Under the pieces are notes generated by a model. The model was not told the DNA's origin. It worked only from the letters and a program-made list of their open reading frames with translations, and did no database searches. DNA of 64,000 nucleotides, from assembly GCA_017307375.1 (NCBI GenBank), contig JAFKFH010000005.1:1-64000 (forward strand). Direction: 5' to 3'. This document shows, piece after piece, positions 36,398-54,826 of this stretch. The position numbers and the translations under genes are program-made. Every line of letters begins with the position of its first letter. The first letter of the stretch is position 1. The DNA is from Alphaproteobacteria bacterium (GTDB taxonomy: Bacteria > Pseudomonadota > Alphaproteobacteria > Ferrovibrionales > Ferrovibrionaceae).

Positions 36398-37177
36398 TCA
36401 GCGCACCTCGTTGATGTAGCAATGCCCGGCGGTACTCGCCCGGTGATGGGCGATGATCGTCGGTGCGCCGGCCTGGTCGAAGGCCACCTCGTCGATCACC
36501 AGCACCGCTGCCGGCAACGCCAGGTCGAGCAACGCGGCATCGTCGCTGTCGGCCAGCGCCGCCGTGACCTGTTCGCGCACCGCCGAGATGCGGATGCCAT
36601 AACGTTCGAGCAGGTGCAGATAGAGCAGTTCCGGCACCTCGTCAGGCGGGCGGGGAAAGTCGGGCACCCGCTCGGCCGCCAGCACGAAGCGGTCGACCAT
36701 GATCGGCCGCCCGGCGACGCTGCGCAGGCGACGCAGCCGCAGGACGCCGGCGCCCGCGGCGAGATTCAGCCGCGACGCCTCGTCGGCCGAGGCAGCCCCT
36801 TCCTCGATCCCGAGGATGCGTGCCTGCGAACGGACCAGCGCGCCGTCGAGGCCATGCAGGCGGAAATACTGGAAGAAGAAGCGCAGCGAATGATCGGGGC
36901 TGCGGCCGGTGACGACCGTCCCGGTCTTGCGCCGGCGGCTGAGCAGGCCTTCCGCAGTCAGGTCGCTCAACGCCCGGCGCACGGTGCCGACCGCGATGCC
37001 GAACATCTGGGCCAGCGCCACCTCGCTCGGCAGGACGGTGCCCGGCGGCCATTGGCCCAGCAGGATCGCCTCGGAAATCTGGCGCTTCACCGTCTCGTAA
37101 AGCGGCGCGGCCGCATCGCCGTCGATCCGCCGCAGCGGCGCAAGCCCTGGGTTTTTGTCGTTGACAAGGGTCATCAC
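36398..37177 (-). CDS. GntR-family regulator, HutC subfamily
   Basis: 259 residues. The N-terminal winged helix (about 25-90: PLYETVKRQISEAILLGQWPPGTVLPSE, read in parts, and GIAVGTVRRALSDLTAEGLL) is GntR type, and the C-terminal UTRA domain (SLRFFFQYFRLHG...) binds small ligands in the HutC subfamily. It is divergent from the M20-ABC-M20-M24 operon across 56 bases and is likely its repressor. Two ATG codons in a row at the start leave one residue uncertain. Confidence 0.88.
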   Translation of the reverse strand: MMTLVNDKNPGLAPLRRIDGDAAAPLYETVKRQISEAILLGQWPPGTVLPSEVALAQMFGIAVGTVRRALSDLTAEGLLSRRRKTGTVVTGRSPDHSLRFFFQYFRLHGLDGALVRSQARILGIEEGAASADEASRLNLAAGAGVLRLRRLRSVAGRPIMVDRFVLAAERVPDFPRPPDEVPELLYLHLLERYGIRISAVREQVTAALADSDDAALLDLALPAAVLVIDEVAFDQAGAPTIIAHHRASTAGHCYINEVR

Positions 37178-37192
37178 TGAGTTCTTATTTCT

Positions 37193-37205
37193 ATATAGTT
37201 TATAT
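37193..37205. promoter_or_regulatory. Candidate operator between gntR and the catabolic operon
   Basis: A perfect dyad atata-gtt-tatat lies 28 bases before the M20 start and 15 bases before gntR. It stands out as A+T-rich in a GC-rich background. The position covers both promoters, as expected for a HutC-type autorepressor. Confidence 0.45.
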
Positions 37206-37233
37206 TAAACGATCGACAGGGGCAGGGTTGCCG

Positions 37234-38508
37234 ATGCCGGGGGAATTGTCCAGCAGCCTGAAGCAGGCGGTCGCCGCGATCGCCGACGACGTCACGACGA
37301 TCACTGCCGAGCTGGCGCAGATGATCGCGGCCGACACGTCCTTCCCCCCGGGCGCGGGATATGGCGACTTTGCCGATCTGATGGAGGGGCTGCTGGCCCC
37401 GGCCGGTTTCTCGTTTCAACGTGTCAGCGTCCCCGAACATCTCTGGCAGGCCCCGGGCGGGCGGGCTCATGGCGAGCGCGTGAACCTGATCGCCCGCCGG
37501 CGCACCGGCCGGCCGGTCTGCAGTCTCTATTACCATGTCGATACCGTCCCGGCGGGCTCGGGATGGACCTTTCCGCCTTTCGCGTTGACGCCGGCCGGCA
37601 ACAGGCTGCACGGCCGGGGCGCGGCCGACATGAAAGGGGCGATCGCCGCCACCCTCGCCGCGTTGCGCGCCGCGGCGGCACACGGCGTCGCCCTGCGCTT
37701 CGATCCTGAGTTCCTGTTGTGCACCGACGAGGAAGGCGGGCTTTATCCCGGCGTCCGCTACCTGGCCGAACAGGGACTGGTCGAAGGCCATATCCTGTCG
37801 TTCAACGGCAGTGCCGGGCCGCGCATCTGGGCCGGCTGCTTCGGCAGCATCGATCTGCTGATCACCGTGCGCGGCCGCGGTGCCCATTCCGGCGATCCGG
37901 TCGGCGGCATCAACGCCATCGAGGTGGCGATGCCGCTGCTGAATGCGCTGATGGCACTGAAGGGCCGGGTCGAGCAGCGCGTCTCGACCATGCCGCCGCC
38001 GCCGCACAACCAGGGCCGGCCGCTGCATGCGCGGCTGACGCTCGCCGCCCTGCACGGCGGCGACAAAGGCTCGGCCCTGCCCGAACGGCTGGAGATCCTG
38101 ATCAACCGCCGCTACGCGCCGGAGGAGGATTTCGCCGCGGTGCGCGCCGAGATCGATGCGACGATCGCCGGCGCGATGGACGGCTCGGCGGCGCTCGAGG
38201 TTTCGACGCAGATGATCGGCCATCTCGCACCGGTCGCCGATCCGACCGGGCCGCACTGGCCGCGCTGGCAGGCCGCGCTGGGCCAGGCCTTCGGCTATGC
38301 CCCGGAAGAGTTCCGCGCCTGGGGCTCGTCGACCAGTTCCGACATGGGTTTCGTGCAGGCGGCGGGCGTGCGCGAAATCCTGCTGGGCGGGCTGACCCGG
38401 CCCGGCAACAACACCCACGCCCCCGACGAGTTCACCACCGTCGACGACCTCGTCGCCCTCGCCCAGGCAGTGCTGCTGTACCTGGCGCAGGATTTCGGCG
38501 CGGCCTGA
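37234..38508 (+). CDS. M20-family metallohydrolase (ArgE/DapE type), first of operon
   Basis: 424 residues from ATG 37234; a TTG two codons earlier is possible. Ligand motifs YYHVDTV, GRGAADMKG, TDEEGG and THAPDEF match the dinuclear zinc site of M20 enzymes and the lid-domain histidine is in GAHSGDP. The position of the third acidic ligand, usually GEPT, reads FNGSAG, so one metal site may be altered. It should hydrolyse an amide bond of an N-acyl or peptide-like compound in the cytoplasm, as there is no signal peptide. It is followed after 34 bases by the importer genes. Confidence 0.82.
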   Translation: MPGELSSSLKQAVAAIADDVTTITAELAQMIAADTSFPPGAGYGDFADLMEGLLAPAGFSFQRVSVPEHLWQAPGGRAHGERVNLIARRRTGRPVCSLYYHVDTVPAGSGWTFPPFALTPAGNRLHGRGAADMKGAIAATLAALRAAAAHGVALRFDPEFLLCTDEEGGLYPGVRYLAEQGLVEGHILSFNGSAGPRIWAGCFGSIDLLITVRGRGAHSGDPVGGINAIEVAMPLLNALMALKGRVEQRVSTMPPPPHNQGRPLHARLTLAALHGGDKGSALPERLEILINRRYAPEEDFAAVRAEIDATIAGAMDGSAALEVSTQMIGHLAPVADPTGPHWPRWQAALGQAFGYAPEEFRAWGSSTSSDMGFVQAAGVREILLGGLTRPGNNTHAPDEFTTVDDLVALAQAVLLYLAQDFGAA

Positions 38509-38542: not shown

Positions 38543-40105
38543 ATGAACGGGTTCCCCCAGATCGACCGGCGCCGCCTGCTGGCGGCCGGCACCGCCGGCC
38601 TCGGCCTGCTGGCGCTGCCGCAGGGCCTGCGCGCGGCGACGCCCAAGCGGGGCGGTACGCTGCGGGTCGGCGTCGACCAGTCGGTGGCCAAGATCAACCC
38701 GACGATCGTGCGGGTGAACCCCGAATACCTGGTGGCCGAACTGCTCTATTCGTCGCTGACGCGGCTAGGCTACGACATGTCGGCGGAACCCGACCTCGCC
38801 TCGGCCTGGACCAATTCCCCCGACCTGACCGAGTGGACCTTCACGCTGCGTCCGAACCTGACCTTCCATGACGGCAGTGCCTGCACCGCCGCCGACGTCG
38901 TCGCGACGTTCGAAGCGCTGCTCGACCCGGCGACCGGCTCGCCGGCCCGGCCCAATATCGGGCCGATCACCAGGATCACGGCCCGCGATGCCACGACGGT
39001 CGTGTTCACGCTGTCGGCGCCCTATGCCGACCTGCCGGTCGCGCTGGCCAATCCGAACGCCAAGATCATTCCCGCCGCCATCGCCAAGGGCGGGCTGGAC
39101 CGCCTGAACCGCGAGGCGGTGGGCACCGGCCCGTTCAAGCTGGTCACCTTCGAGCCCGAGCGCATCATCGTCGTCGCCCGCAACCCGGCCTATTACGACC
39201 CGGCCCGGCCGGTCGTCGACAAGGTCGAGGTCGTGGTCTACCCCGACATGACCGCGCAGGGTTCGGCGCTGATCTCCAGCGACATCGACCTGATGTACAT
39301 GGTGGCGCCGACCGAATATGCCCGCCTGCAGAAGGCATCGGGCGTCACCGCGCTGCGCGTGCCGTCGGGCCAGTTCTGCAACATCAACATGGCCTGCGAC
39401 CAGAAGCCGTTCAACGACGTGCGGGTGCGCCAGGCCCTGGCCCTCACCCTCGACCGCGCGGCGCTGGTCGACTTCGTCGCCGAAGGCTTCGGCACGCCGG
39501 GCTGGGACTCGCCGCTGAACTCCGCCTATCGCTTCAACACCGCGCTGACGCCCAAGAAGGCCGACATCGCCAAGGCCAGGAAGCTGCTGGCGGATGCCGG
39601 CCATCCCAAAGGCCTCGAGGCGACGTTGATCGCCTCCGACAGCCCGGCGACACGCACGCAGCTCGGCGTCGCGGTGCGCGAGATGGCCAAGGCTGCCGGC
39701 TTCACGATCAACGTCCAGACCATGCCGCATTCGACCTATCTGGATCAGGTCTGGAAGAAGGGCGCGTTCTACGTCGGCTTCTACAATCAGCAGCCGACCG
39801 CCGACGGCATCTTCTCGCTGCTCTACACCTCCAACGCGGCCTGGAACGAGACCCGCTGGAACAACACGGCCTTCGACAAGCTGGTGGGCGAGGCCCGCAC
39901 CACCGTCGACGAGGCGCGGCGGCGCGCGCTCTACGCCGAGGCGCAGCAGCTGATGTATGACGAGGTGCCGTCGATCATCCCCGTCTTCTTCGACCTGCTG
40001 GGCGCCCATCGCAGCTATGTCGAAGGCTACCGGCTGCATCCCCGCGGCGCGGTATTCCGGCTGGATCAGGTCGGCTTCGGCGACGGCGCGCCGCGTCGAG
40101 GCTGA
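38543..40105 (+). CDS. ABC transporter substrate-binding protein, family 5 (Dpp/Opp type), Tat signal
   Basis: 520 residues from ATG 38543 with aggag (38531-38535) seven bases upstream; an earlier ATG (38519) lacks this. The N-terminus (DRRRLLAAGTAGLGLLALP) has the twin-arginine motif and a hydrophobic stretch, so export by the Tat pathway in folded form is likely. The mature protein begins PKRGGTLRVGVD, standard for family 5 binding proteins that carry peptides, opines, nickel or glutathione. It delivers substrate to the permeases encoded next. Confidence 0.9.
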   Translation: MNGFPQIDRRRLLAAGTAGLGLLALPQGLRAATPKRGGTLRVGVDQSVAKINPTIVRVNPEYLVAELLYSSLTRLGYDMSAEPDLASAWTNSPDLTEWTFTLRPNLTFHDGSACTAADVVATFEALLDPATGSPARPNIGPITRITARDATTVVFTLSAPYADLPVALANPNAKIIPAAIAKGGLDRLNREAVGTGPFKLVTFEPERIIVVARNPAYYDPARPVVDKVEVVVYPDMTAQGSALISSDIDLMYMVAPTEYARLQKASGVTALRVPSGQFCNINMACDQKPFNDVRVRQALALTLDRAALVDFVAEGFGTPGWDSPLNSAYRFNTALTPKKADIAKARKLLADAGHPKGLEATLIASDSPATRTQLGVAVREMAKAAGFTINVQTMPHSTYLDQVWKKGAFYVGFYNQQPTADGIFSLLYTSNAAWNETRWNNTAFDKLVGEARTTVDEARRRALYAEAQQLMYDEVPSIIPVFFDLLGAHRSYVEGYRLHPRGAVFRLDQVGFGDGAPRRG

Positions 40106-40107
40106 CG

Positions 40108-41055
40108 ATGTCCCCTGCCTACGCCCTCAAGCGCTGCGGGCTGATCGTCTACACCCTGCTGGTGGTGTCGCTGATCGTGTTCGCCATCACCCAGGTGCTG
40201 CCCGCCGATGCCGCGACCATGCTGCTCGGCGAGAACGCGACGGCCGAGGCCCTGGCCGCGGTGCGTGAGCGCCTCGGCCTGGAGGCGCCGGTGTGGCTGC
40301 AATATGCCCGCTGGCTCGGCGGCGTGGTGCAGGGGGATTTCGGAACGTCGCTGCGTACCGGCCTGCCGGTCGCGCCGCTGATGATGGAAGCGCTGGGCCG
40401 GTCGCTGCTGCTGGCCCTGCTCTCCATCCTGCTGATGCTCGCCATCGCCGTACCGCTCGGCGTCATCGCTGCGGTGCGGCGGGGCCGGGCGGCCGACCTG
40501 ATCGTCTCGGTCCTGTCCTATGTCGGCGTGTCGCTGCCCGAGTTCGTGACGGCAACGGTGTTCGTGCTGGTCCTGGCCGACTGGCTGCAGATCCTGCCGG
40601 CCAGCGGCTATGTCGCGCCGACCCAGGACCCGCTGCGCGCGCTGCAGCACCTGGCGCTGCCGGTGCTGACCGTCTCGGTGATCCTGGTCGCGCATGTCTC
40701 GCGCATGGTGCGCTCGGAACTGGTCGACGTGCTGCATTCCGACTATGTCCGCGCCGCCCGGCTGAAGGGCATGAAGCCGCGCACGGTCCTGCTGCGCCAC
40801 GGACTGCGCAACGCCCTGCTGCCGACCATCACCATCGTCGCGCTCGACGTCGGCTATCTGCTGGGTGGCGTCATCGTCGTCGAGGAGATCTTTGCCATCC
40901 CCGGCATCGGCCGGCAGCTGATCGTCGCCATCCAGGCCCGCGACCTGCCGGCGATCCAGGCCGGGGCGCTGATCATGGCAGCGACCTATTCGGTGGCGAA
41001 CTTCGCCGCCGACCTCGCCTATGCCTGGCTCGACAAGAGAATCCAGTATGACTGA
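40108..41055 (+). CDS. ABC permease, DppB type
   Basis: 315 residues with six membrane helices. Family marks are the first helix followed by the large periplasmic loop (FAITQVLPADAATMLLGENA), GDFGTSLRTG, and the EAA-type coupling loop DYVRAARLKGMKPRTVLLRHGLRNALLP. It forms the channel with the DppC-type protein. It begins 2 bases after the binding-protein stop and overlaps dppC by 8 bases. Confidence 0.92.
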   Translation: MSPAYALKRCGLIVYTLLVVSLIVFAITQVLPADAATMLLGENATAEALAAVRERLGLEAPVWLQYARWLGGVVQGDFGTSLRTGLPVAPLMMEALGRSLLLALLSILLMLAIAVPLGVIAAVRRGRAADLIVSVLSYVGVSLPEFVTATVFVLVLADWLQILPASGYVAPTQDPLRALQHLALPVLTVSVILVAHVSRMVRSELVDVLHSDYVRAARLKGMKPRTVLLRHGLRNALLPTITIVALDVGYLLGGVIVVEEIFAIPGIGRQLIVAIQARDLPAIQAGALIMAATYSVANFAADLAYAWLDKRIQYD

Positions 41056-41872
41056 CCTGATCTCGCGGCTTGCCCGCACGCCGCAGGGCGCCGCCGGGCT
41101 GGCGCTGGTCGGCCTGGTGCTGCTGGTCGTGGTGTTCGGCCCCCTGCTCGCCCCCTACGATCCCGAGGCGATGGCGCCGCTGTTGCGCTACAAGGGCCCG
41201 AGCCTCGTGCATCTTCTCGGCACCGACCAGTACGGCCGCGACATCCTCAGCCGGCTGCTGGTCGGGGCGCGCGCGACGGTCGTGATGGCCGTGCTGGCCA
41301 CGCTGCTCGGCACCCTGGTCGGCGCCCTGCTCGGCACCGCCTCGGCCTTCCTCGGCGGCCGCGCCGACGAGGCGATCATGCGCACGGTAGACGCCGTGAT
41401 GTCGATCCCCAGCCTGCTGTTTGCGCTGCTGATCGTGAACCTGCTGGGCAAGAGCGGGCTGAATGCCCTGCTTGCCATCGGCATCGCCTTCGCGCCGGGC
41501 ATGGCCCGCGTCGCCCGTTCGGTGGCCTTGGCCGTGCGCAAGCAGGATTACGTCAATGCCGCAATCGCCCGCGGCGAAGGCGGCTTCCACATCGTCGTGC
41601 GCGAGATGCTGCCCAACGTCGTGGCGCCGATCATCGTCGAGACGACGATCCGCGTCGCCTTCGCCGTGATGCTGTTCGCGACGCTGAGCTTCCTGGGGCT
41701 CGGCGCCCAGCCGCCGGCACCCGAATGGGGGCTGATGGTGGCCGAAGCGCGCAAATATCTGAATCTCAGCCCGTGGATGCTGATCTGGCCGAGCATCGCG
41801 ATCGCCATCGTCGCGATCGGCTTCAACCTGCTGGGCGACGGCCTGCGCGACGCGCTCAATCCCCGGACGTGA
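41048..41872 (+). CDS. ABC permease, DppC type
   Basis: 274 residues from ATG 41048, overlapping the previous gene; the frame is open 9 codons further upstream. Motifs LGTDQYGRDILSRLLVGAR and AIARGEGGFHIVVREMLPNVVAPIIVE are diagnostic of DppC-type permeases. It partners the DppB-type protein in the inner membrane. Confidence 0.92.
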   Translation: MTDLISRLARTPQGAAGLALVGLVLLVVVFGPLLAPYDPEAMAPLLRYKGPSLVHLLGTDQYGRDILSRLLVGARATVVMAVLATLLGTLVGALLGTASAFLGGRADEAIMRTVDAVMSIPSLLFALLIVNLLGKSGLNALLAIGIAFAPGMARVARSVALAVRKQDYVNAAIARGEGGFHIVVREMLPNVVAPIIVETTIRVAFAVMLFATLSFLGLGAQPPAPEWGLMVAEARKYLNLSPWMLIWPSIAIAIVAIGFNLLGDGLRDALNPRT

Positions 41873-41880
41873 GACCCGCG

Positions 41881-43503
41881 ATGGAACAGCCCGCACTCAC
41901 CATATCAGGCTATTCGCTCGACTATCTCACCCCGCGCGGCGTGCACCATGCGCTGGTCGATATCGACCTTGCCATCGCCCGCGGCGAAGTCCTGGGGCTG
42001 GTCGGCGAAAGCGGCTCGGGCAAGACGTCGCTGGCCTGGTCGATCATGCGCTATCTGCCGGGCAACGCCCGCGAGAACGGCGGTCGCATTCTGCTGGGTC
42101 GGGACGACCTGCGGGCAATGGCACCGGCGGCGATCGAAGAAATCCGCGGCCGCCGCATCGGCATGGTATTCCAGGACCCGTCGACCTCGCTCAACCCGAC
42201 GCTGAGCCTGGGCATCCAGCTGGCCGAGGTGCTGGAGCGCCATCGCGGCCTGACACGGCGTCAGGCCTGGCGCGAGGGCGAGCAGATGCTGGCCCGCGTC
42301 GGGCTGAAGGATCCGCCTGGCATGATGCGCCGCTATCCGCATGAGGCATCGGGTGGCGAGAAGCAGCGTGTCGTCATCGCCCAGGCCTTCGCCTGCCAGC
42401 CCGAATGCATCCTGTTCGACGAGCCGACCACGGCGCTCGACGTGATCACCGCGCGCCAGATCCTCGAGCTGTTCGCCGAACTGCAGGCGGAGACCGGCGT
42501 CGCCTCGCTCTACATTTCCCATGACCTCGCGCTGGTGTCGCGCGTGGCAGACCGCGTCGCCGTGCTGCATCACGGCAACATGGTCGAACAGGGCCAGGTG
42601 GCCGGCGTGTTCGGCGCACCGCGCGAAGCCTATACCCGGCGGCTGGTCGCCGCCGTACCGCGGCCCGACCGGCGGCTGGTCGCCGAGTTGGGGCCGGCCG
42701 AGGCGGCGGCGGCACCGCTGGTCGCGGCGCGCGGCGTCTCGGTCGAATACGGGCGGCCGTCGGCGATCGCCCGGCTGTTCGGCCGCGACCGTGCCCCGGT
42801 CGTGGGCAATCGCGCGGTCAGCCTGGACGTACGGCCCGGCGAGATCGTCGGCGTGGTCGGGGAATCCGGTTCGGGCAAGTCGACGCTAGCCCGCGCGCTG
42901 ACCGGGCTGAACCCGTTTTCGGGCGAGATCGTCTTCGACGGTCGACCGGTCCGTGGTATCGCCGACATGGACGGCGCCTATCGCCGTGACGTGCAGATCA
43001 TTTTCCAGCACCCGGATTCGTCGCTCAATCCGCGCCAGCGGATCGGCGAGATCCTGGCCCGGCCGCTGCGGCTGCACGACCGGCTGCCGGGCGCGGCCGA
43101 AGCCGCACGGATCGGCGAACTGCTGGAACAGGTCCGCCTGCCCGCCACCTATGCCGGACGCTATCCGCACCAGCTGTCCGGCGGCGAGAAACAGCGTGTC
43201 GCCATCGCCCGCGCCTTCGCCACGGCCCCGCGCCTCGTCATCTGCGACGAGATCACCTCGGCCCTCGACGTGTCGGTGCAGGCGGCGGTGATCGAGCTGC
43301 TGCTCGATCTGCGCCGGCGTCACGGCACCGCCTACCTGTTCATCACCCACGACCTGAACCTCGTCCGCCAGATCGCCCATCGCATCGCCGTGATGTATCG
43401 CGGCGACCTGGTCGAAGTCCTCGACGCACAGGCGTTCTCCGCCGGCCCGACCCATCCCTATACCCGCTCGCTGGTCGCGGCGGTGCCGGTACCGGTCGGC
43501 TGA
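41881..43503 (+). CDS. Fused dual ABC ATPase (DppD-DppF in one chain)
   Basis: 540 residues from ATG 41881. Two complete nucleotide-binding domains are joined in one chain. The first has Walker A GESGSGKTS, signature ASGGEKQR and Walker B ILFDEPTTALD; the second has GESGSGKST, LSGGEKQR and LVICDEITSALD. The linker lies about residues 265-300. Both active sites look intact, so the chain replaces the usual DppD and DppF pair. The fusion fixes 1:1 stoichiometry. Confidence 0.93.
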   Translation: MEQPALTISGYSLDYLTPRGVHHALVDIDLAIARGEVLGLVGESGSGKTSLAWSIMRYLPGNARENGGRILLGRDDLRAMAPAAIEEIRGRRIGMVFQDPSTSLNPTLSLGIQLAEVLERHRGLTRRQAWREGEQMLARVGLKDPPGMMRRYPHEASGGEKQRVVIAQAFACQPECILFDEPTTALDVITARQILELFAELQAETGVASLYISHDLALVSRVADRVAVLHHGNMVEQGQVAGVFGAPREAYTRRLVAAVPRPDRRLVAELGPAEAAAAPLVAARGVSVEYGRPSAIARLFGRDRAPVVGNRAVSLDVRPGEIVGVVGESGSGKSTLARALTGLNPFSGEIVFDGRPVRGIADMDGAYRRDVQIIFQHPDSSLNPRQRIGEILARPLRLHDRLPGAAEAARIGELLEQVRLPATYAGRYPHQLSGGEKQRVAIARAFATAPRLVICDEITSALDVSVQAAVIELLLDLRRRHGTAYLFITHDLNLVRQIAHRIAVMYRGDLVEVLDAQAFSAGPTHPYTRSLVAAVPVPVG

Positions 43504-43531: not shown

Positions 43532-44749
43532 ATGGATCGCGATGCGATTCTTGCCCGTCTCGACGAGAAGGCCAGCCTCGAATTCCTCAGCGCGATGGTG
43601 CGCCACAAGAGCTATTCGGAAACCGACGGCGAGCGCGCCCTGGCCCGCTTCATGGTCGAGCGCATGCGCGAGATCGGCCTGTCGGCCGAGCTGGGACCGG
43701 TGCCCGGCGAGCGCTTCAATGCGATCGGCCGCCTGGCCGGCGCCGGCGGCGGCAAGAGCCTCCTGTTCAACGGCCATCTCGACACCAACCCGGTGACCGA
43801 GGGCTGGACCGTCGATCCCTGGGGCGGACTGGTCGACGACCGCTTCATCTACGGGATCGGCGTCTCCAACATGAAGGCCGGGGACGCCGCCTATTTCTGC
43901 GCCGTGCGCACCCTGGTCGAGGCCGGCGTCAGGCTCAAGGGCGACGTCGTGCTGACCTATGTCGTCGGCGAGCTGCAGGGCGGGGTGGGCTCGCTTGCCG
44001 CCATCCGCCAGGGGGTCCGCGCCGACTACTTCATCAACAGCGAACCGACCGACCTGCAGGCGCTGACCATGCATGCCGCGTCCGGCATGTTCTCGATCGA
44101 GCTGACCGGCGTCACCCGGCATCTGTCCAAGCGCGAGCAGGCGGTCGACGCGATCGCCGCGGCCTGCGACCTGATCCCGCGACTGAACGCGATGACCTTC
44201 AGCGGGGCCCGCACGTCGGATCATCGCGGGATCAACCGCTGCCATATCGGCGTGGTGCACGGCGCGCTGGGCCGCGACCTGCAGGAATGGCGTGCGCCGC
44301 AAGTCGCCGACTTCCTGCGGCTGAAGGGCACGGCGCGTTACGCCCCGGGCCAGACCGAGGCCGGCGCCCTGGCCGACATCCGCCGCGAGCTCGATGCGCT
44401 GGAAGCCCGCTTCCCCGGGCTGAAGGCCGAACTGATCCCGGAGCGGACCGAGAACCGGCCGCAGATGCCGCCGTTCGAGGTGGATCGGGAGTCGCGCATC
44501 GTGAAGACCATCAACGCCGCCTACGCCCATGTCCGCGGCGAGGCCCAGCCGACCGGCGCGATCACCCCGCCGGGCTTCTACGGCACCGATGCCGGGCATT
44601 TCTACCAGGAACTCGGCATGGAAGGGATCGTCTGCGGCCCGGGCGGCCGCTACAACACGATGCCGGACGAGCGGGTCGACATCGCCGACTATCTCGACAT
44701 GATCCGCATCTACATGCTGGCGATCCTCGACATCTGCGAGCCGGCCTGA
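43532..44749 (+). CDS. M20-family protein with degenerate metal site
   Basis: 405 residues. The overall M20 fold is clear: FNGHLDTNPV, GVSNMKAG, VVGELQGG, NSEPTDL, the lid domain with TRHLSKREQAVDA, and GPGGRYNTMPDERV. By alignment to ArgE by eye, the metal-bridging Asp (DMKG) is Asn, the second Glu of DEE is Leu, and the last His (AHxPDE) is Thr. Only the first His, its Asp neighbour and the SEP Glu remain, so at most one metal would bind. The role might be a metal-poor hydrolase or a binding or regulatory function. The gene sits between the ABC ATPase and the M24-like gene. Confidence 0.75.
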   Translation: MDRDAILARLDEKASLEFLSAMVRHKSYSETDGERALARFMVERMREIGLSAELGPVPGERFNAIGRLAGAGGGKSLLFNGHLDTNPVTEGWTVDPWGGLVDDRFIYGIGVSNMKAGDAAYFCAVRTLVEAGVRLKGDVVLTYVVGELQGGVGSLAAIRQGVRADYFINSEPTDLQALTMHAASGMFSIELTGVTRHLSKREQAVDAIAAACDLIPRLNAMTFSGARTSDHRGINRCHIGVVHGALGRDLQEWRAPQVADFLRLKGTARYAPGQTEAGALADIRRELDALEARFPGLKAELIPERTENRPQMPPFEVDRESRIVKTINAAYAHVRGEAQPTGAITPPGFYGTDAGHFYQELGMEGIVCGPGGRYNTMPDERVDIADYLDMIRIYMLAILDICEPA

Positions 44750-44757
44750 GGGGGCGG

Positions 44758-45879
44758 ATGTTCGACGCCGCCGAATACGATCGCCGCCTCGGCCTGATCC
44801 GTGCCGAAATGGCGCGACACGGCGTCGATCTCGTGCTGATCGACCACGCCGAGTTCCTGGCCTGGGCGACCGGCTATACGGTCTCGGAGACGATGTATCG
44901 CGCCGCGCTGATCCCAGTCACGGGCACTGCCTGGTTCGCCCTGCGCGCCCTCGACGCCGAACCTTGCCGGCAAGCGAGCTGGATCGGCGACATCATCGGC
45001 TTCGCCGATACGCAGGATGCGCATGCAGCCGTTGCCGAAACCATCCGGGCCCGCGGCCACGGGGCGGCGCGCATCGGTCTCGACTTCGCCTCCTACGGCT
45101 GTTCCGCCCATGCGCTGGCGCGGCTGCGGGCCGAGTTGCCGCAGGCGACGCTGGTCGATCTGGCGGGTATCAGCGACCGGCTGCGGGCGGTGAAATCAGC
45201 GGCCGAGATCGACGTCCTGTCGCGGGCGGCGGCGATCGCCGATTCGGCGATGGCCGCGTTGGCCCGTACCGTGCGGCTGGGTGTCAGTCCGCGCGAGGCC
45301 GCCGCCATCGCCGCCGCGACCTTCCTGCGCCTGGGTGCGGACAGCGGCGAGACCGGCCCGATCGTGCGTGCCGTCGGCAACAACGAATTCCTGCACGGCC
45401 GCATGGGCGACGATGTGCTGGTCGGCGGCGACATCCTGCATGTCGAACTGATCCCGAAGGTCGCCAATTACAGCGCCCGGCTGATGCGTCCGATCGTGAT
45501 CGGTGGCGCTGGCGCCACGCAGAAGGCCGTGGCCGAACGGCTGGTCGCGCTGCAGGATCGTCAGATCGCGGCGATGCGGCCGGGCGTGGCGGCGGCGGAG
45601 GTCGATGCGATCCTGCGCCGGGGTGTGCTGGCCGAAGGCCTGCGCCCCGACTACGACAACGTCACCGGTTATGCGCTGGGCCTCTATGCCCGCACGCCGC
45701 GCACCAGCGACTTTTCCTATTGTTTCCTGCCGAATGCCGGCTGGCGGCTCGAGGCCGGCATGGTCTTCCACATGTATGCCTCGGCGCAAGGGCTCGGAAT
45801 GTCGGAGACCGTGGTGGTCGGGGAGGAAGGCGGGCGGTGCCTGACCCGGACACCGCGCCGCCTGCTCGAAAGCGCCTGA
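44758..45879 (+). CDS. M24-fold protein lacking metal ligands (creatinase/DoeA-like)
   Basis: 373 residues from ATG 44758, 8 bases after the M20 stop; the frame upstream lies in that gene. Residues about 1-140 form the creatinase N-domain and the rest the pita-bread fold. The Asp-Asp-His-Glu-Glu ligands of M24 aminopeptidases are mostly missing: the strand reads HVELIPKVANYSARLMR (no second Asp), GHGIG is GYALG, and V-E-P-G is MYAS. This pattern is shared with metal-free M24 relatives such as creatinase and ectoine hydrolase, which act on small cyclic or amidino compounds. It ends 1 base from prfB, with a cgcct-gactt-aggcg stem (45873-45887) spanning both stops. Confidence 0.75.
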   Translation: MFDAAEYDRRLGLIRAEMARHGVDLVLIDHAEFLAWATGYTVSETMYRAALIPVTGTAWFALRALDAEPCRQASWIGDIIGFADTQDAHAAVAETIRARGHGAARIGLDFASYGCSAHALARLRAELPQATLVDLAGISDRLRAVKSAAEIDVLSRAAAIADSAMAALARTVRLGVSPREAAAIAAATFLRLGADSGETGPIVRAVGNNEFLHGRMGDDVLVGGDILHVELIPKVANYSARLMRPIVIGGAGATQKAVAERLVALQDRQIAAMRPGVAAAEVDAILRRGVLAEGLRPDYDNVTGYALGLYARTPRTSDFSYCFLPNAGWRLEAGMVFHMYASAQGLGMSETVVVGEEGGRCLTRTPRRLLESA

Positions 45880-49766: not shown

Positions 49767-50873
49767 TTACAGGCGCGTCAGATGGTTGTCCCAGCGCAAC
49801 GCCGCGTCGGCGCCGGCCAAAATCGCCTGTTTTCCCTGCGCCGGCCAGACCATCCAGGCCCCGCCCAGCCCCGAGGTCAGCACGAACGAGCCCGCCTCGG
49901 GACCGGCGGCGATGCCGCAGACATCGCCCGCGGCGATCTGCCCGACCGGGGTGCCGTCGGCGACGCGCCAGAAGACCGCCAGCCCGCCGCGCGGCGAGGT
50001 CGCGCCGAGAATGGCGCCGGACCGGTCCAGCGCGGCGCTGCCGCAATACTGGCGCAGCCCGGCGCGGCGATGATCGTCGAGGTTCAGGAAAGTCAGCCGG
50101 TCGGCGCCGCGCCGGTGGCTTGCCACCAGCGGCACCGGGTCGGCCTGCGGCCCTTCATACTGGCCGGCGATCTCGACCAGACCGTCGGCGGTGACGGCGA
50201 GATGGCGCAGCGACAGCTGCGACAGTCCGGCCGGCGGTGCCACCTGTTCGACGATCCGGCCGTCGGCCAGCGCCAGATAGGCGATCGACGGCGCCATGTC
50301 GCCGGGATTGAGCCGGCCCTGCGGCAGGTCGGGATGGGTCAGGATGCCGCCATTGGCCACCACGAGCGTCGTGCCGTCCGGCATCAGCCTGACGTCATGG
50401 GGGTCGAGGCCGCCCGAGGGCACCTCGCCCACCCGGCGATAGGCCTGGCGGGCATCGTAGATGCCGATACGCCCGTCGCCGCTGTCGATCTCGGTCTCGG
50501 TGGCATAGAGCAGACCGCCGGTGGCGTCGAACACGCCATGGCCGTTGAAGTGGCGCCCCCCGGCCGCCTCGACCAGATGCCGCCGTCGCCCGTCGGCCAG
50601 TCCCAGCACCATCATGAAGCCGCCGGGGCGGCGGCCGAAGGCGATCGCCTCGTCGGCGGCGGGGCGCCGGATCACCTGATGGGCGCGGGCCGGCAGGTCA
50701 TGGCGCCAGCGGGTGGCGCCGTCGAGGCCGAGTGCGGCGACCAGGGCGCGGCCGTCGCGCGCCATGCCGGCCGACAGGAAGGCGGGTTGCCCGGCAGCGC
50801 CGGCAATGGCCGGCGGCGGCAGGCCGAGACCCGCCAGCGCGGCGGTGAAAAGGCGGCGGCGGGCGATCCGCAC
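49767..50873 (-). CDS. DUF1513 beta-propeller-like periplasmic protein
   Basis: 368 residues. The N-terminus (RIARRRLFTAALAGLG) looks like a twin-arginine signal. The remainder contains repeated strand-turn units with histidines (GRHFNGHGVFD, GLDPHDVRLMPDG, LRHLAVTADG), typical of the DUF1513 family, which is usually found beside imelysin genes. A role in iron handling is inferred from the operon only. It is the last gene of the operon, 3 bases after the second imelysin. Confidence 0.8.
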   Translation of the reverse strand: MRIARRRLFTAALAGLGLPPPAIAGAAGQPAFLSAGMARDGRALVAALGLDGATRWRHDLPARAHQVIRRPAADEAIAFGRRPGGFMMVLGLADGRRRHLVEAAGGRHFNGHGVFDATGGLLYATETEIDSGDGRIGIYDARQAYRRVGEVPSGGLDPHDVRLMPDGTTLVVANGGILTHPDLPQGRLNPGDMAPSIAYLALADGRIVEQVAPPAGLSQLSLRHLAVTADGLVEIAGQYEGPQADPVPLVASHRRGADRLTFLNLDDHRRAGLRQYCGSAALDRSGAILGATSPRGGLAVFWRVADGTPVGQIAAGDVCGIAAGPEAGSFVLTSGLGGAWMVWPAQGKQAILAGADAALRWDNHLTRL

Positions 50874-50876
50874 CGT

Positions 50877-52010
50877 TCAGTCCCCGTCCAGGCTGTTGAA
50901 GCCGAGCGGCACGCCCAGCGCCTCGGTCAGGTCCTCGGCGATCATCCGTTTCAGCTTCTCGCCCTGCTCGACCACGCGCAAGGCTGCCTGGCGCTGATCG
51001 GGCTTCAGGATCGTCTTGTCGAGCGGTTCGCGCAGCCGGGCCACCGCCTGCTGGACCGCGGCGAACTGTTTGCGGATCGCGGCGGCGAGATCGGCGCGGC
51101 CGGCCGGACCGGACAGAAGCTGGTCCAGGGTCGGATCGCCGTCGCGCAGATAGAGGGCCTCGGCAGCGGCCAGGTTGGCCTTGATCGCGTTCAGCGTCTG
51201 GCCCGACCGCCAGGCTTCCATCGTGCGCGGCTGGGCCTTGTCGGCGGTGGCGCCGAGCGGCCGCTTCAGCTTGCGGTCGATCGGCAGCTCGATGGCGGCA
51301 TGCAGGCTCTTGATCAGTTCGAGCGTCGCATCGGTCGGCACCATGTACCGGCTGCCGACCTGGCCGGCGCGGGCCATTTCCGCCGGAAAGCCCTGCGCCC
51401 CCCAGGCGGCCGCGGTGTCGGTCGCGATCGCGGCGAGGTTGCCGGTGATCGCGGTCAGCATGGCACAGCGGAACCTGGCCGCATCGTCCTTCGCGGTCAG
51501 CCTGGGCAGGGTATCGTCACCATAGAGCAGCCGTTCCAGCGCGGTGAAGCCCTGCACCGAGACCGACCCCTGGGCAAAGGCCTGGGGCGTGATGCTGGCC
51601 GGATCGGCCTTGGCCAGTACCTGGCCGAGCTGCCGGCCCAGCACGTCGCGCGGATCGGGCCAGAAGGCGGTGCGCTGATAGCGGAAGAACAGTTCGACCG
51701 GACCGAAGGAGACATGTTGTATCCCCTCCCAGGCCGCGAACCCGGCGACATAGGCCGCCCGCGCCTGGCCAAGCCGCGCCTGATCGGGCTGCTGGCACAG
51801 TGCCTGGCCCGCCTGGTCGAGCTTGGCCGTCGCCTCGGCGAGCCGGGCATAGCGCGGCGTGATATGGGCCAGGGCCACGCTCTGGTTCAGCCGAGTGAAA
51901 TCGGCATCCGACGGCGCGGCAACGGCGGCCGAGGCCAGCAGGATCGCCGCACCGGCGCATGCCAGGCCCCAGGTCAGGCGCCGCGCCGGCGTGCTTGGGT
52001 TTTCAGCCAT
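50877..52010 (-). CDS. Second imelysin-family periplasmic protein
   Basis: 377 residues from ATG 52010; the frame continues upstream into the di-heme gene. A signal peptide ends near ASAAVAAPSD (about residue 32). The protein is helical, with WEGIQHVSFGPVELFF and, where imelysins have G-x-H-x-x-E, the sequence GFTALERLLYG, so the histidine is replaced by threonine. This is a known trait of a sub-group of imelysins whose role is unclear. It shares the operon with a canonical imelysin. Confidence 0.82.
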   Translation of the reverse strand: MAENPSTPARRLTWGLACAGAAILLASAAVAAPSDADFTRLNQSVALAHITPRYARLAEATAKLDQAGQALCQQPDQARLGQARAAYVAGFAAWEGIQHVSFGPVELFFRYQRTAFWPDPRDVLGRQLGQVLAKADPASITPQAFAQGSVSVQGFTALERLLYGDDTLPRLTAKDDAARFRCAMLTAITGNLAAIATDTAAAWGAQGFPAEMARAGQVGSRYMVPTDATLELIKSLHAAIELPIDRKLKRPLGATADKAQPRTMEAWRSGQTLNAIKANLAAAEALYLRDGDPTLDQLLSGPAGRADLAAAIRKQFAAVQQAVARLREPLDKTILKPDQRQAALRVVEQGEKLKRMIAEDLTEALGVPLGFNSLDGD

Positions 52011-52026
52011 CGTGGGCTTCTCCGCG

Positions 52027-53478
52027 TCAGAGCGAGTTGACGAAAGCGAGCAGGGCCTCGCGGTCGCGGCGCGACAGCTTGACCACGCGGTCGCGCGCCG
52101 GCCCGGCCTCGCCACCATGCCAGAGGATGGCTTCGAGCAGGTTGCGGGCGCGCCCGTCATGCAGGAAATTCGTATGGCCGTTGACCGCCTTGGTCAGGCC
52201 GACGCCCCACAGCGGCGGGGTGCGCCAGTCGCGCCCGCCGGCGGCACCTTCCGGGCGGTGGTCGGCAAGGTCCTCGCCCATGTCGTGCAGCAGCAGGTCG
52301 GTATAGGGCCAGATCAGCTGGTCGGACTGCTCGGGTCGCTCCGGGTCGCTGGCGGTGCGGAAGCTCGGCACATGGCAGGCGGCACAGCCGACGTCGTGGA
52401 ACAGCTTCTTGCCGGCCAGCACCTGCGGGGCGCCGGGATTGCGGCGGGCGGGGACCGCGAGATTGCGCGAATAGAAGGTGACCAGGTCCATCATGCGCCC
52501 GGTGACCTCGACATGCTCGACCGGATCGGCGCCATCGGGGGCGTCGAGACAGGCTTTCTGCCTGGGCGTGCAGTCGCCGGAGGAAAGCGGCGAGATCGCC
52601 GAGGACAGGCCGATGTCGCCGGCGAAGGCATGGGCGACCTGCTGGCGGATCGTCGGTTCGCCGGCCTTCCAGCCGAAACGACCCAGCATCGGCCGGTCGG
52701 TCGTGACGTCCCAGCCGGTATTGGCCCGGCCGCGGATCCCGTCGCCGTTGCGATCGTCGGGATCGGCATTGGCCAGGATCGCCTGCGCCGGAATCATCTC
52801 GAGCAGGCCCAGCCCGATCATCGGCGGGGCGATGCGCGGCGACATCATCACGTCGGGCCGCATCGGTCCGTAATTGAGGTTGCGCACCGAATAGGTCGGG
52901 GCGCGCAAGATGACCACCGTGCCGTCGGCCAGCCTGATCTTGCGGTCCTTGCGGGTGACGACCATCTCGCCCTCGGCGAGAAAGCCGTGGATGGCGAAGT
53001 TCTGCAGCTGGCCGCCATAGGTCGGCTCGGGGATCGTCGCCTGGCGGAAGGTCTTCAGGGCGTCGCGCTGCTCGTCGGTCGTCGGCGGTACCGACAGGCG
53101 CAGGAACAGGGCCACCGCCTCCTCGCCCGGCGCGGGCGGGCGGCCGCGGCCGTCCTTCAGGTGGCAGCCCTGGCAGGAGCGCGAATTGTAGAGGGGGCCG
53201 AGGCCATCCGACGACGTGGTCGAACTGGGGGCGGCCACCCACAGCTTGCGGAAGATGCCGTCGCCGACCTTGAAGTCCAGCTCACGCTCGAACGACATGT
53301 TGGCCGAGGAATGGGAGAAGGCCGAGGTGTTGATGTCGGCATGCGAGGTCGCGGCACCGCCGGGATCGCCCTCGCCCGGTTCCAGGCGGCCGTAGTCCAC
53401 CGCCCAGCCAATTCCCGCAGCCCCGAGCGAGGCGGCCATCGCCACGGCGGCGATCAACGAGGCACGTCCGATCATCAT
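52027..53478 (-). CDS. Di-heme c-type cytochrome, DUF1111 (thiol oxidoreductase-like)
   Basis: 483 residues with a signal peptide (MIGRASLIAAVAMAASLGAAG). Two haem-binding motifs are visible: CQGCH near residue 104 and CAACH near residue 362. This family is related to di-haem cytochrome c peroxidases, and members occur with imelysins in iron-uptake operons. It probably transfers electrons in the periplasm, perhaps to oxidise or reduce iron before uptake. That is inference. Spacing to the first imelysin is 64 bases. Confidence 0.85.
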   Translation of the reverse strand: MMIGRASLIAAVAMAASLGAAGIGWAVDYGRLEPGEGDPGGAATSHADINTSAFSHSSANMSFERELDFKVGDGIFRKLWVAAPSSTTSSDGLGPLYNSRSCQGCHLKDGRGRPPAPGEEAVALFLRLSVPPTTDEQRDALKTFRQATIPEPTYGGQLQNFAIHGFLAEGEMVVTRKDRKIRLADGTVVILRAPTYSVRNLNYGPMRPDVMMSPRIAPPMIGLGLLEMIPAQAILANADPDDRNGDGIRGRANTGWDVTTDRPMLGRFGWKAGEPTIRQQVAHAFAGDIGLSSAISPLSSGDCTPRQKACLDAPDGADPVEHVEVTGRMMDLVTFYSRNLAVPARRNPGAPQVLAGKKLFHDVGCAACHVPSFRTASDPERPEQSDQLIWPYTDLLLHDMGEDLADHRPEGAAGGRDWRTPPLWGVGLTKAVNGHTNFLHDGRARNLLEAILWHGGEAGPARDRVVKLSRRDREALLAFVNSL

Positions 53479-53542
53479 GTCGCAACTCTTGAAAGCAGAT
53501 GGGTGACGGGCCGCCGGTCGCGGCGGCCCGCTGCCTGGTTCG

Positions 53543-54826
53543 TTACTTCTTGCCGACCTTGGCGGGATCGTCGAGGCTGTCCGAACCTTCGACCTTGATC
53601 GGCTTCAGCTTCAGCGCCGCGACGACACGCTCGAGCGTCCGGGTCTGGGCGGTCAGGGTGTCGATCGCCGCCTGCACCACGGCATTGCCCTCGGGGTTGT
53701 TCGGCCCGATCATCTGGTCATAGGCTTCCTTGGTCTCGGCCCGCTGCTTCAGCGCGGTCATCGCCGCGACGGTCGCCTCGAGCTTCGCCTTCATCTCGGT
53801 ATCGAGCGCCGGATCGGCCTTGGCCACGATCGATGACAGGCTCGCGACCTTCAGCGGCGAACCGTCGGCGCGGGCATATTCGCCGAGATAGACGTTGCGG
53901 ATGCCGATGACGTCGTAATAGTGCGAATTGTGGGTGTTGTCGGAGAAGCAGTCGTGCTCCTCCTCCGGATCGTGCAGCATCAGCCCGAGCTTCATGCGCT
54001 CGCCGGCCAGTTCGCCATAGGACAGGCTGCCCATGCCGGTCAGGATCGTGGTGATGCCGTTGTCGGGCTTGCCCTTGACCAGGCCCTGGCGGGCCTTGCC
54101 GTCCTTGGTCCATTGCTTCGCCATCCAGGCGAGGTCGGAAACCAGAAGGTCGGTCGCGGCCTTCAGATACTGGGCGCGGCGGTCGCAATGGCCGTTGGTG
54201 CAGCCGTCCTTGGCATAGTCGGTCCAGGGCCGGTTGCCGGCGCCCGGGCCGGTGCCGTTGAGGTCCTGGCCCCACAGCAGGAATTCGATGGCGTGATAGC
54301 CGGTCGCGACATTGGCCTCGACCCCGCCCGCCTCATGCAGCTTGCGCAACAGCTTGGCGTCGATCTTGCGGGCATCGACGGTCTTGCCGGCGACCTTGAC
54401 CTTGGGGTTGGCGATGATGTTGGCGGTGCGCGACGGGTTCTCGTCGGAGGCGTCGCCGTAGCTGCCGGCGTCGACATAGTCGATCAGCCCCTCGTCGAGC
54501 GGCCAGGCATTCACCTTGCCTTCCCAGTCGTCGACGATCTTGTTGCCGAACCGGTAGACCTCGGTCTGCTGATACGACGGCCGGGCCGCGATCCAGGCGG
54601 CGCGGGCGGCCTTCATCGTCTCGTCCGACGGCTTGGCGATCAGGGCGTCGACGGCCTGCTGCAGCGTCCTGGCCGTGGTCAGCGCATCGCCATAGGCTGC
54701 GGCGGCGATGTCGGCATAGCCCGCGACCACCGCCTGTTTCTCGGCGGCGGTCTGGGCGAAGGCCGCCGTCAGCGGCAGCGACACCAATGCCGTCACCGCC
54801 AGCAGGCGCGAAATCCGGCTGATCAT
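53543..54826 (-). CDS. Imelysin-family iron-associated protein, first of operon
   Basis: 427 residues with a Sec signal peptide (LLAVTALVSLPLTAAFAQ). The imelysin motif G-x-H-x-x-E is intact in TGYHAIEFLLWG (about residue 176), together with a glycine- and asparagine-rich loop (LNGTGPGAGNRPW). Family members such as IrpA/IcmP are periplasmic or surface proteins needed for growth with little iron. It heads the four-gene operon behind a promoter with a palindrome that may bind an iron regulator. Confidence 0.87.
   Translation of the reverse strand: MISRISRLLAVTALVSLPLTAAFAQTAAEKQAVVAGYADIAAAAYGDALTTARTLQQAVDALIAKPSDETMKAARAAWIAARPSYQQTEVYRFGNKIVDDWEGKVNAWPLDEGLIDYVDAGSYGDASDENPSRTANIIANPKVKVAGKTVDARKIDAKLLRKLHEAGGVEANVATGYHAIEFLLWGQDLNGTGPGAGNRPWTDYAKDGCTNGHCDRRAQYLKAATDLLVSDLAWMAKQWTKDGKARQGLVKGKPDNGITTILTGMGSLSYGELAGERMKLGLMLHDPEEEHDCFSDNTHNSHYYDVIGIRNVYLGEYARADGSPLKVASLSSIVAKADPALDTEMKAKLEATVAAMTALKQRAETKEAYDQMIGPNNPEGNAVVQAAIDTLTAQTRTLERVVAALKLKPIKVEGSDSLDDPAKVGKK

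Follow-up and report, generated by a model that had tools for sequence, protein, structure and literature searches.

An importer operon with rebuilt M20 and M24 hydrolase sites, probably dedicated to a non-peptide nitrogen compound

Creatinase is a metal-free relative of the M24 peptidases. In the M20 fold, 5-nitroanthranilate aminohydrolase (5NAA-A or NaaA; PDB 5k8m-5k8p) is represented, according to the titles of its PDB entries, by structures that contain either Mn2+ and the product or Zn2+ and a tetrahedral intermediate. Within the M24 family, DoeA of Halomonas has been described as a member that resembles creatinase, and deletion of doeA abolished growth on ectoine (PMC3187862). Here we compare with these enzymes an operon that encodes two M20 proteins (M20A and M20B), an M24 protein and an ABC importer. 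With moderate confidence, we propose that this operon is dedicated to the substrate-induced import and intracellular hydrolysis of one class of small, carboxylated nitrogen compounds other than peptides.

The operon was found in a window of 64,000 nucleotides (the whole stretch of DNA that was analyzed). Its genes are tightly packed, with gaps of at most 28 bases from the binding-protein gene onward, and M20B and M24 are separated by 8 bases (Table 1). The original prediction had placed the open reading frames of M20B and M24 at these same positions, next to a family 5 binding protein with a Tat signal, fused ATPases and a regulator, and both the positions and the context were confirmed here, the latter by Pfam matches and by the RRx-hydrophobic motif of the binding protein. 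The enzymes of the operon are hydrolases only, with neither a dehydrogenase nor a transaminase among them, and the products are therefore expected to be ordinary metabolites. Downstream of the operon, on the opposite strand, lies prfB (called from its sequence). A further gene cluster of the window (49767-54826, minus strand) looks, from its translations alone, like an iron-related imelysin/di-haem peroxidase operon.

Table 1. Features of the locus, with positions in the window.
Feature	Position	Strand	Evidence
GntR/UTRA (HutC-like) regulator, divergent	36398..37177	-	Pfam GntR 2.1e-18, UTRA 1.2e-24
Putative palindromic operator TATTTCTATATAGTTTATAGAAATA	37186..37210	.	Conserved in divergent promoter; single genome match
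M20A, M20 hydrolase, Asn for site-1 Glu	37234..38508	+	Pfam Peptidase_M20, M20_dimer; ligand columns
Family 5 solute-binding protein, twin-arginine signal	38543..40105	+	SBP_bac_5 1.8e-82
ABC permease, DppB/NikB type	40108..41055	+	BPD_transp_1 3e-39
ABC permease, DppC/NikC type	41048..41872	+	BPD_transp_1 9.9e-31, OppC_N
Fused ABC ATPase pair (GsiA/YejF-like)	41881..43503	+	Two ABC_tran domains
M20B, M20-fold hydrolase, three ligands replaced	43532..44749	+	Pfam M20; ligand columns; 5NAA-A fold matches; tree
M24, DoeA/creatinase-type pita-bread protein	44758..45879	+	Pfam Peptidase_M24, Creatinase_N; DoeA matches; ligand columns

The importer is of the Opp/Dpp/Nik type, with one SBP_bac_5, two BPD_transp_1 and two ABC_tran domains. 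It shares a family 5 binding protein and two permeases with the Gsi, Dpp and Nik importers, and a fused ATPase with GsiA and YejF, but the neighboring enzymes differ. The fused ATPase scored 464 bits with GsiA and 446 bits with YejF, each under the cut-off. The permeases, the binding protein and the full-length ATPase were all under the equivalog cut-offs, and the ATPase domains passed the single NikD and NikE ATPase models. The twin-arginine motif was found in 63 of 64 orthologues of the binding protein.

The divergent regulator presents GntR and UTRA domains, the architecture of the HutC repressor. HutC was also its best NCBIfam model, at 97.4 bits against a cut-off of 220, which the protein does not reach. 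Between the regulator and M20A lies the AT-rich palindrome given in Table 1, which we consider a putative operator on the basis of its strong conservation: a related site was found in 56 of the 80 loci surveyed, from Bosea to Pantoea and Rahnella, and the palindrome is thus common to Alphaproteobacteria and Enterobacterales. A single match with up to three mismatches was detected in the 7.54 Mb genome, at 37188-37208 of the window, where no match is expected by chance. Relaxed matching recovered the site in 15 of 19 other genomes, almost always as a single copy. A repressor dedicated to one operon implies that the inducer is specific. We also considered a wider regulon as a clue to the pathway, but a single operator per genome adds no further genes.

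The columns of the M20 alignment were assigned to metal sites by the numbering of DapE from H. influenzae, in which site 1 is formed by His67, Asp100 and Glu163, site 2 by Asp100, Glu135 and His349, and the general base is Glu134. M20B has kept His82 and Asp84 (GHLD), Glu147 (GELQ) and Glu171 (SEPT). The bridging Asp is replaced by Asn113 (SNMK) and the second Glu by Leu148 (GELQ), and Thr376 (NTMPDERV) is found where the final His of M20 proteins is expected. In DapE columns, His82/Asn113/Glu171 thus correspond to site 1, Leu148/Thr376 to site 2 and Glu147 to the base. As read from these columns, site 2 is lost and an amide stands in place of the bridging carboxylate; His and Glu of site 1 remain. 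The survey of M20B covered 80 loci from species genomes with about 70-80% identity, 43 of which were used for a profile. The seven site residues were invariant across these 43 aligned homologues (70-80% identity), and so was the lid residue His197. The three ligand losses announced by the original prediction (Asn, Leu and Thr) were therefore recovered in 43 of 43 homologues, which indicates that they are fixed features and neither a sequencing error nor chance. The aligned columns show no other residues that would restore an ordinary dinuclear site, so that the first of the two refuting outcomes named in the original prediction fails. M20B was also the protein with the highest median identity to the window in the 35 complete loci (73%, compared with 54% for M24, 57% for M20A and 60-70% for the remaining of the eight proteins). 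The changes observed in M20B and in M24 do not look like decay.

5NAA-A was among the best matches of M20B when PDB sequences were searched with phmmer and with a profile. An AlphaFold2 model of M20B (mean pLDDT 89, residues 87-92 near the active site being poorly predicted) gave as its best fold matches 3pfo (Z 40.4) and the 5NAA-A entries (Z 38.9-39.8), which constitutes a tie. The entry 3pfo is an unremarkable putative deacetylase, from which 5NAA-A is set apart by its ligand pattern. 5NAA-A and three plasmid-borne NaaA-like proteins carry Asn at the position of the bridging Asp, have Ile where the second Glu would be and lack the final His, so that the altered set (H, D, N, E, non-acidic, E, no H) is common to M20B and to 4 of 4 NaaA-like proteins. 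The canonical ligands are kept in DapE and in nearly all the M20 paralogues compared. By Pfam, M20A and M20B both have the fold of the canonical dinuclear M20 enzymes of the ArgE/DapE type, and M20B shares the general base of these deacylases, but the five-ligand set is incomplete in both proteins, three ligands being absent from M20B and one from M20A. In the tree, M20B was placed with the NaaA-like proteins (support 94/90) in a clade with long branches that includes one other altered paralogue. A clade made up of M20B and the NaaA-like proteins alone is possible, as the AU test did not reject it (p = 0.534), though the grouping joins long branches.

M20B is only about 23% identical to 5NAA-A, and the surroundings also differ, as the NaaA-like genes of the three plasmids adjoin a flavin-dependent oxidoreductase gene and have no family 5 importer. 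These plasmids belong to Paraburkholderia (L108:6156-9729), Acinetobacter (L109:6126-9759) and Kozakia (L110:6691-9182). In the first two, an isochorismatase-family hydrolase and a flavin reductase are also located beside the oxidoreductase; in Kozakia, an isochorismatase-family hydrolase is located farther along from the NaaA-like gene. Such settings possibly correspond to an aromatic amine pathway. The roles given here to residues of 5NAA-A and DoeA are based on column equivalence, PDB titles and background knowledge. A correspondence between Arg254 of M20B and Arg289 of 5NAA-A (mutated in 5k8p) was obtained with HMMER only, and it was set aside because MAFFT disagrees and the other NaaA-like proteins lack this residue.

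Since 5NAA-A was crystallized with metals, a ligand set like that of M20B can support metal catalysis, and a single labile metal is preferred over a metal-free protein. Moreover, the general base Glu147 is retained along with His82 and Glu171, which makes one metal likelier than none. M20B is thus probably not metal-free.

A different reading is that M20B is a non-catalytic pseudoenzyme that binds M20A or M24 as a scaffold or regulatory subunit and leaves the chemistry to one of these two proteins. Three metal-ligand positions of M20B are indeed gone, M20A holds exactly the ligands that are missing in M20B, most loci carry both proteins, and non-catalytic homologues of metallopeptidases with partner roles exist (PMC11266112). 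However, the invariance of Glu147, His82, Asp84, Glu171 and lid His197 goes beyond the needs of a scaffold, 5NAA-A is an enzyme despite the same losses, and several loci (L087, L093 and L094) present M20B and the transporter without M20A. We consider the pseudoenzyme unlikely and retain M20B as a putative single-metal enzyme.

M20A showed an altered ligand too, which is absent from the original prediction, where this protein seems to be treated as normal. Its ligand columns read H, D, D, E, E, N, H, and all ligands but one are intact, including the Glu-Glu pair and the final His. In six of seven aligned M20A sequences, Asn replaces the Glu of the GEPT motif, and the seventh (L062) has Asp there. 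This loss concerns a site-1 carboxylate, that is to say the half of the M20 site opposite to that affected in M20B. One could imagine that the two proteins form a matched pair which splits an ancestral two-metal site, M20A keeping site 2 and M20B site 1. They would then work together on a natural amine of aromatic or heterocyclic type, either one after the other or within a mixed oligomer, and M20B would carry out a metal-dependent nucleophilic displacement like 5NAA-A. We regard this scenario as clearly improbable.

In M24, the columns of the Asp/Asp/His/Glu/Glu ligands of prolidase-type metallopeptidases are occupied by Glu230, Arg241, Tyr305, a deletion and Ser349. The original prediction had noted the lack of most of these ligands; in the alignment, none of them is present. 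Instead, M24 has in common with DoeA the residues His213, Glu230, Tyr305, His338 and Glu350, all invariant in 27 aligned M24 orthologues, and it thus carries the His/Glu/Tyr/His/Glu set of DoeA without the M24 metal ligands. DoeA was also the best PDB profile match (1.9e-38) and the best fold match (Z 42.4), followed by creatinase (Z 38.1), which was equal to dipeptidases (38.0 for one of them). The comparison with DoeA and creatinase made in the original prediction is therefore supported, more so for DoeA/EutD (PDB 6twj, 6twk, 6yo9), which shares the pita-bread fold, the five residues and the absence of metal ligands at about 23% identity, than for creatinase (PDB 1chm, 1kp0, 7yto), which shares the fold at about 21% identity.

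Being nearest to DoeA, M24 could be thought to be the ectoine hydrolase of a variant ectoine/hydroxyectoine operon in which an M20 protein stands in for the deacetylase DoeB. M24 is nevertheless not DoeA itself, as it scored far under the cut-offs of the two DoeA family models (102.7 bits for 613 and 126.3 bits for 575) and formed its own well supported branch in the tree, apart from DoeA. Besides, no doeB/eutE or eut partner gene was found in the operon, and half of the loci lack M24. On the grounds of cut-offs, partner genes and tree, we rejected the ectoine operon, which appears very improbable.

Two other occurrences of such proteins were observed. An M24 relative with 40% identity is encoded on a plasmid of Sinorhizobium medicae (L107:960-12544), together with a peptide-type importer, a CapA protein, a gene of the gamma-glutamyl-GABA hydrolase family and an amidohydrolase, and this may be another setting for the M24 branch. 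The genome of the window itself has a second DoeA-like gene (L118, C38:141478-142560), which belongs to a more distant type also found in loci L078, L087 and L093.

The search for M20B in the GTDB collection matched 198 stretches. The family is rare overall: of 398 genomes drawn from across the phylum, two carried it, and the genome of the window is one of these two. A recurring unit (regulator, M20A, Tat-type binding protein, two permeases, fused ATPase and M20B) occurs in Alphaproteobacteria and in Pantoea, Erwinia and Rahnella. When at least 8 kb were available upstream (68 loci), the binding protein/permease was present in 67 loci, the adjacent ATPase in 66, M20A in 60 and a regulator orthologue in 55. 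When enough sequence was available downstream (73 loci), M24 was adjacent in 34, a more distant DoeA-like gene was adjacent in 4, such a gene was located elsewhere on the locus in 3, and none was detected in 32. These counts define the transporter, M20A and M20B as the core and M24 as an accessory, so the pathway cannot need M24 everywhere. An obligate pairing of M20B with M24 was consequently rejected. For 12 of the 16 loci without M24 whose genome was checked, no M24 above threshold was found anywhere in the genome. The complete set of eight genes was present in 35 loci, so that the second refuting outcome named in the original prediction, a gene set missing from every other genome, fails as well. 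Flanking genes were also considered as a source of information on the substrate and were discarded, as neighbors vary from genome to genome.

A second type of operon was noticed in L087:1662-12420, L093:1507-12411 and L078:712-11358. Here M20B has 71-75% identity, the importer is more distant and M20A is absent. Two more distant DoeA-like genes, with the catalytic His and the last Glu changed too, are accompanied by a divergent gene of the allantoate/N-carbamoyl amidohydrolase group. This gene content hints at ureido chemistry, which is too little to name a substrate.

An ordinary peptide-utilisation operon, in which di- or oligopeptides would be imported and the M20 and M24 proteins would cleave unusual peptides (beta-, D- or N-capped), was also envisaged. 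The transporter is of the peptide/nickel class, with an ATPase nearest to glutathione and microcin C importers, and the M20 and M24 families are mostly composed of peptidases. Yet M24 has the DoeA pattern in place of all five peptidase metal ligands, M20B is devoid of a dinuclear site, and, in contrast to the housekeeping uptake of peptides, the operon has a repressor to itself that acts at one site. This explanation thus seems rather improbable. As the metal sites are rebuilt as in two known non-peptide hydrolases, the operon is probably a pathway for one particular nutrient rather than a means of scavenging peptides. This agrees with the original prediction, which put forward the catabolism of a nitrogen compound other than a peptide.

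We hypothesize that the substrate would be imported by the Tat-exported family 5 binding protein and the Opp/Dpp-type ABC transporter, as suggested by their families. M20B would then cut a C-N bond by means of one divalent metal, weakly held in site 1 by His82, Glu171 and possibly Asn113. Glu147 would serve as the general base and Arg side chains would contact the carboxylates of the substrate, as in 5NAA-A; this step is proposed from the residues and fold that the two proteins have in common. M20A, with the opposite half-site kept, may take off another acyl or amide group. Where M24 is present, in roughly half of the carriers, it would hydrolyse a cyclic or amidino group without a metal, by means of the His/Glu machinery that ectoine hydrolase and creatinase use. 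Finally, the GntR/UTRA protein would repress transcription at the palindrome of the divergent promoter until released by the substrate or an intermediate, the presumed ligand. The gene content, its conservation, the ligand changes and the operator were observed directly. Import, hydrolysis and induction are deduced from protein families, and M20B as a single-metal C-N hydrolase and M24 as a metal-independent amidine/ring hydrolase are proposed with less support. The ring or amide cleavage and deacylation roles of the original prediction amount to a guess at the substrate and the bonds cut.

No description of this operon was found in the open-access literature that was searched. Each part of the operon belongs to a known class, and the combination as well as the M20B branch appear to be undescribed. 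If our proposal is true, plant- and soil-associated Rhizobium, Bradyrhizobium, Azospirillum, Bosea, Pantoea and Erwinia carrying this compact and self-contained operon would consume an unnamed nitrogen compound, and its enzymes, for which peptidase or acetylornithine deacetylase is the universal annotation, would be something else. The single-metal M20 branch exemplified by 5NAA-A would then extend, with M20B, well past one nitroaromatic pathway. If M20A and M20B did turn out to be a split-site pair, they would represent a catabolic pathway and a set of reactions not yet described. The single-copy operator and the binding protein would offer direct handles for the search of the substrate.
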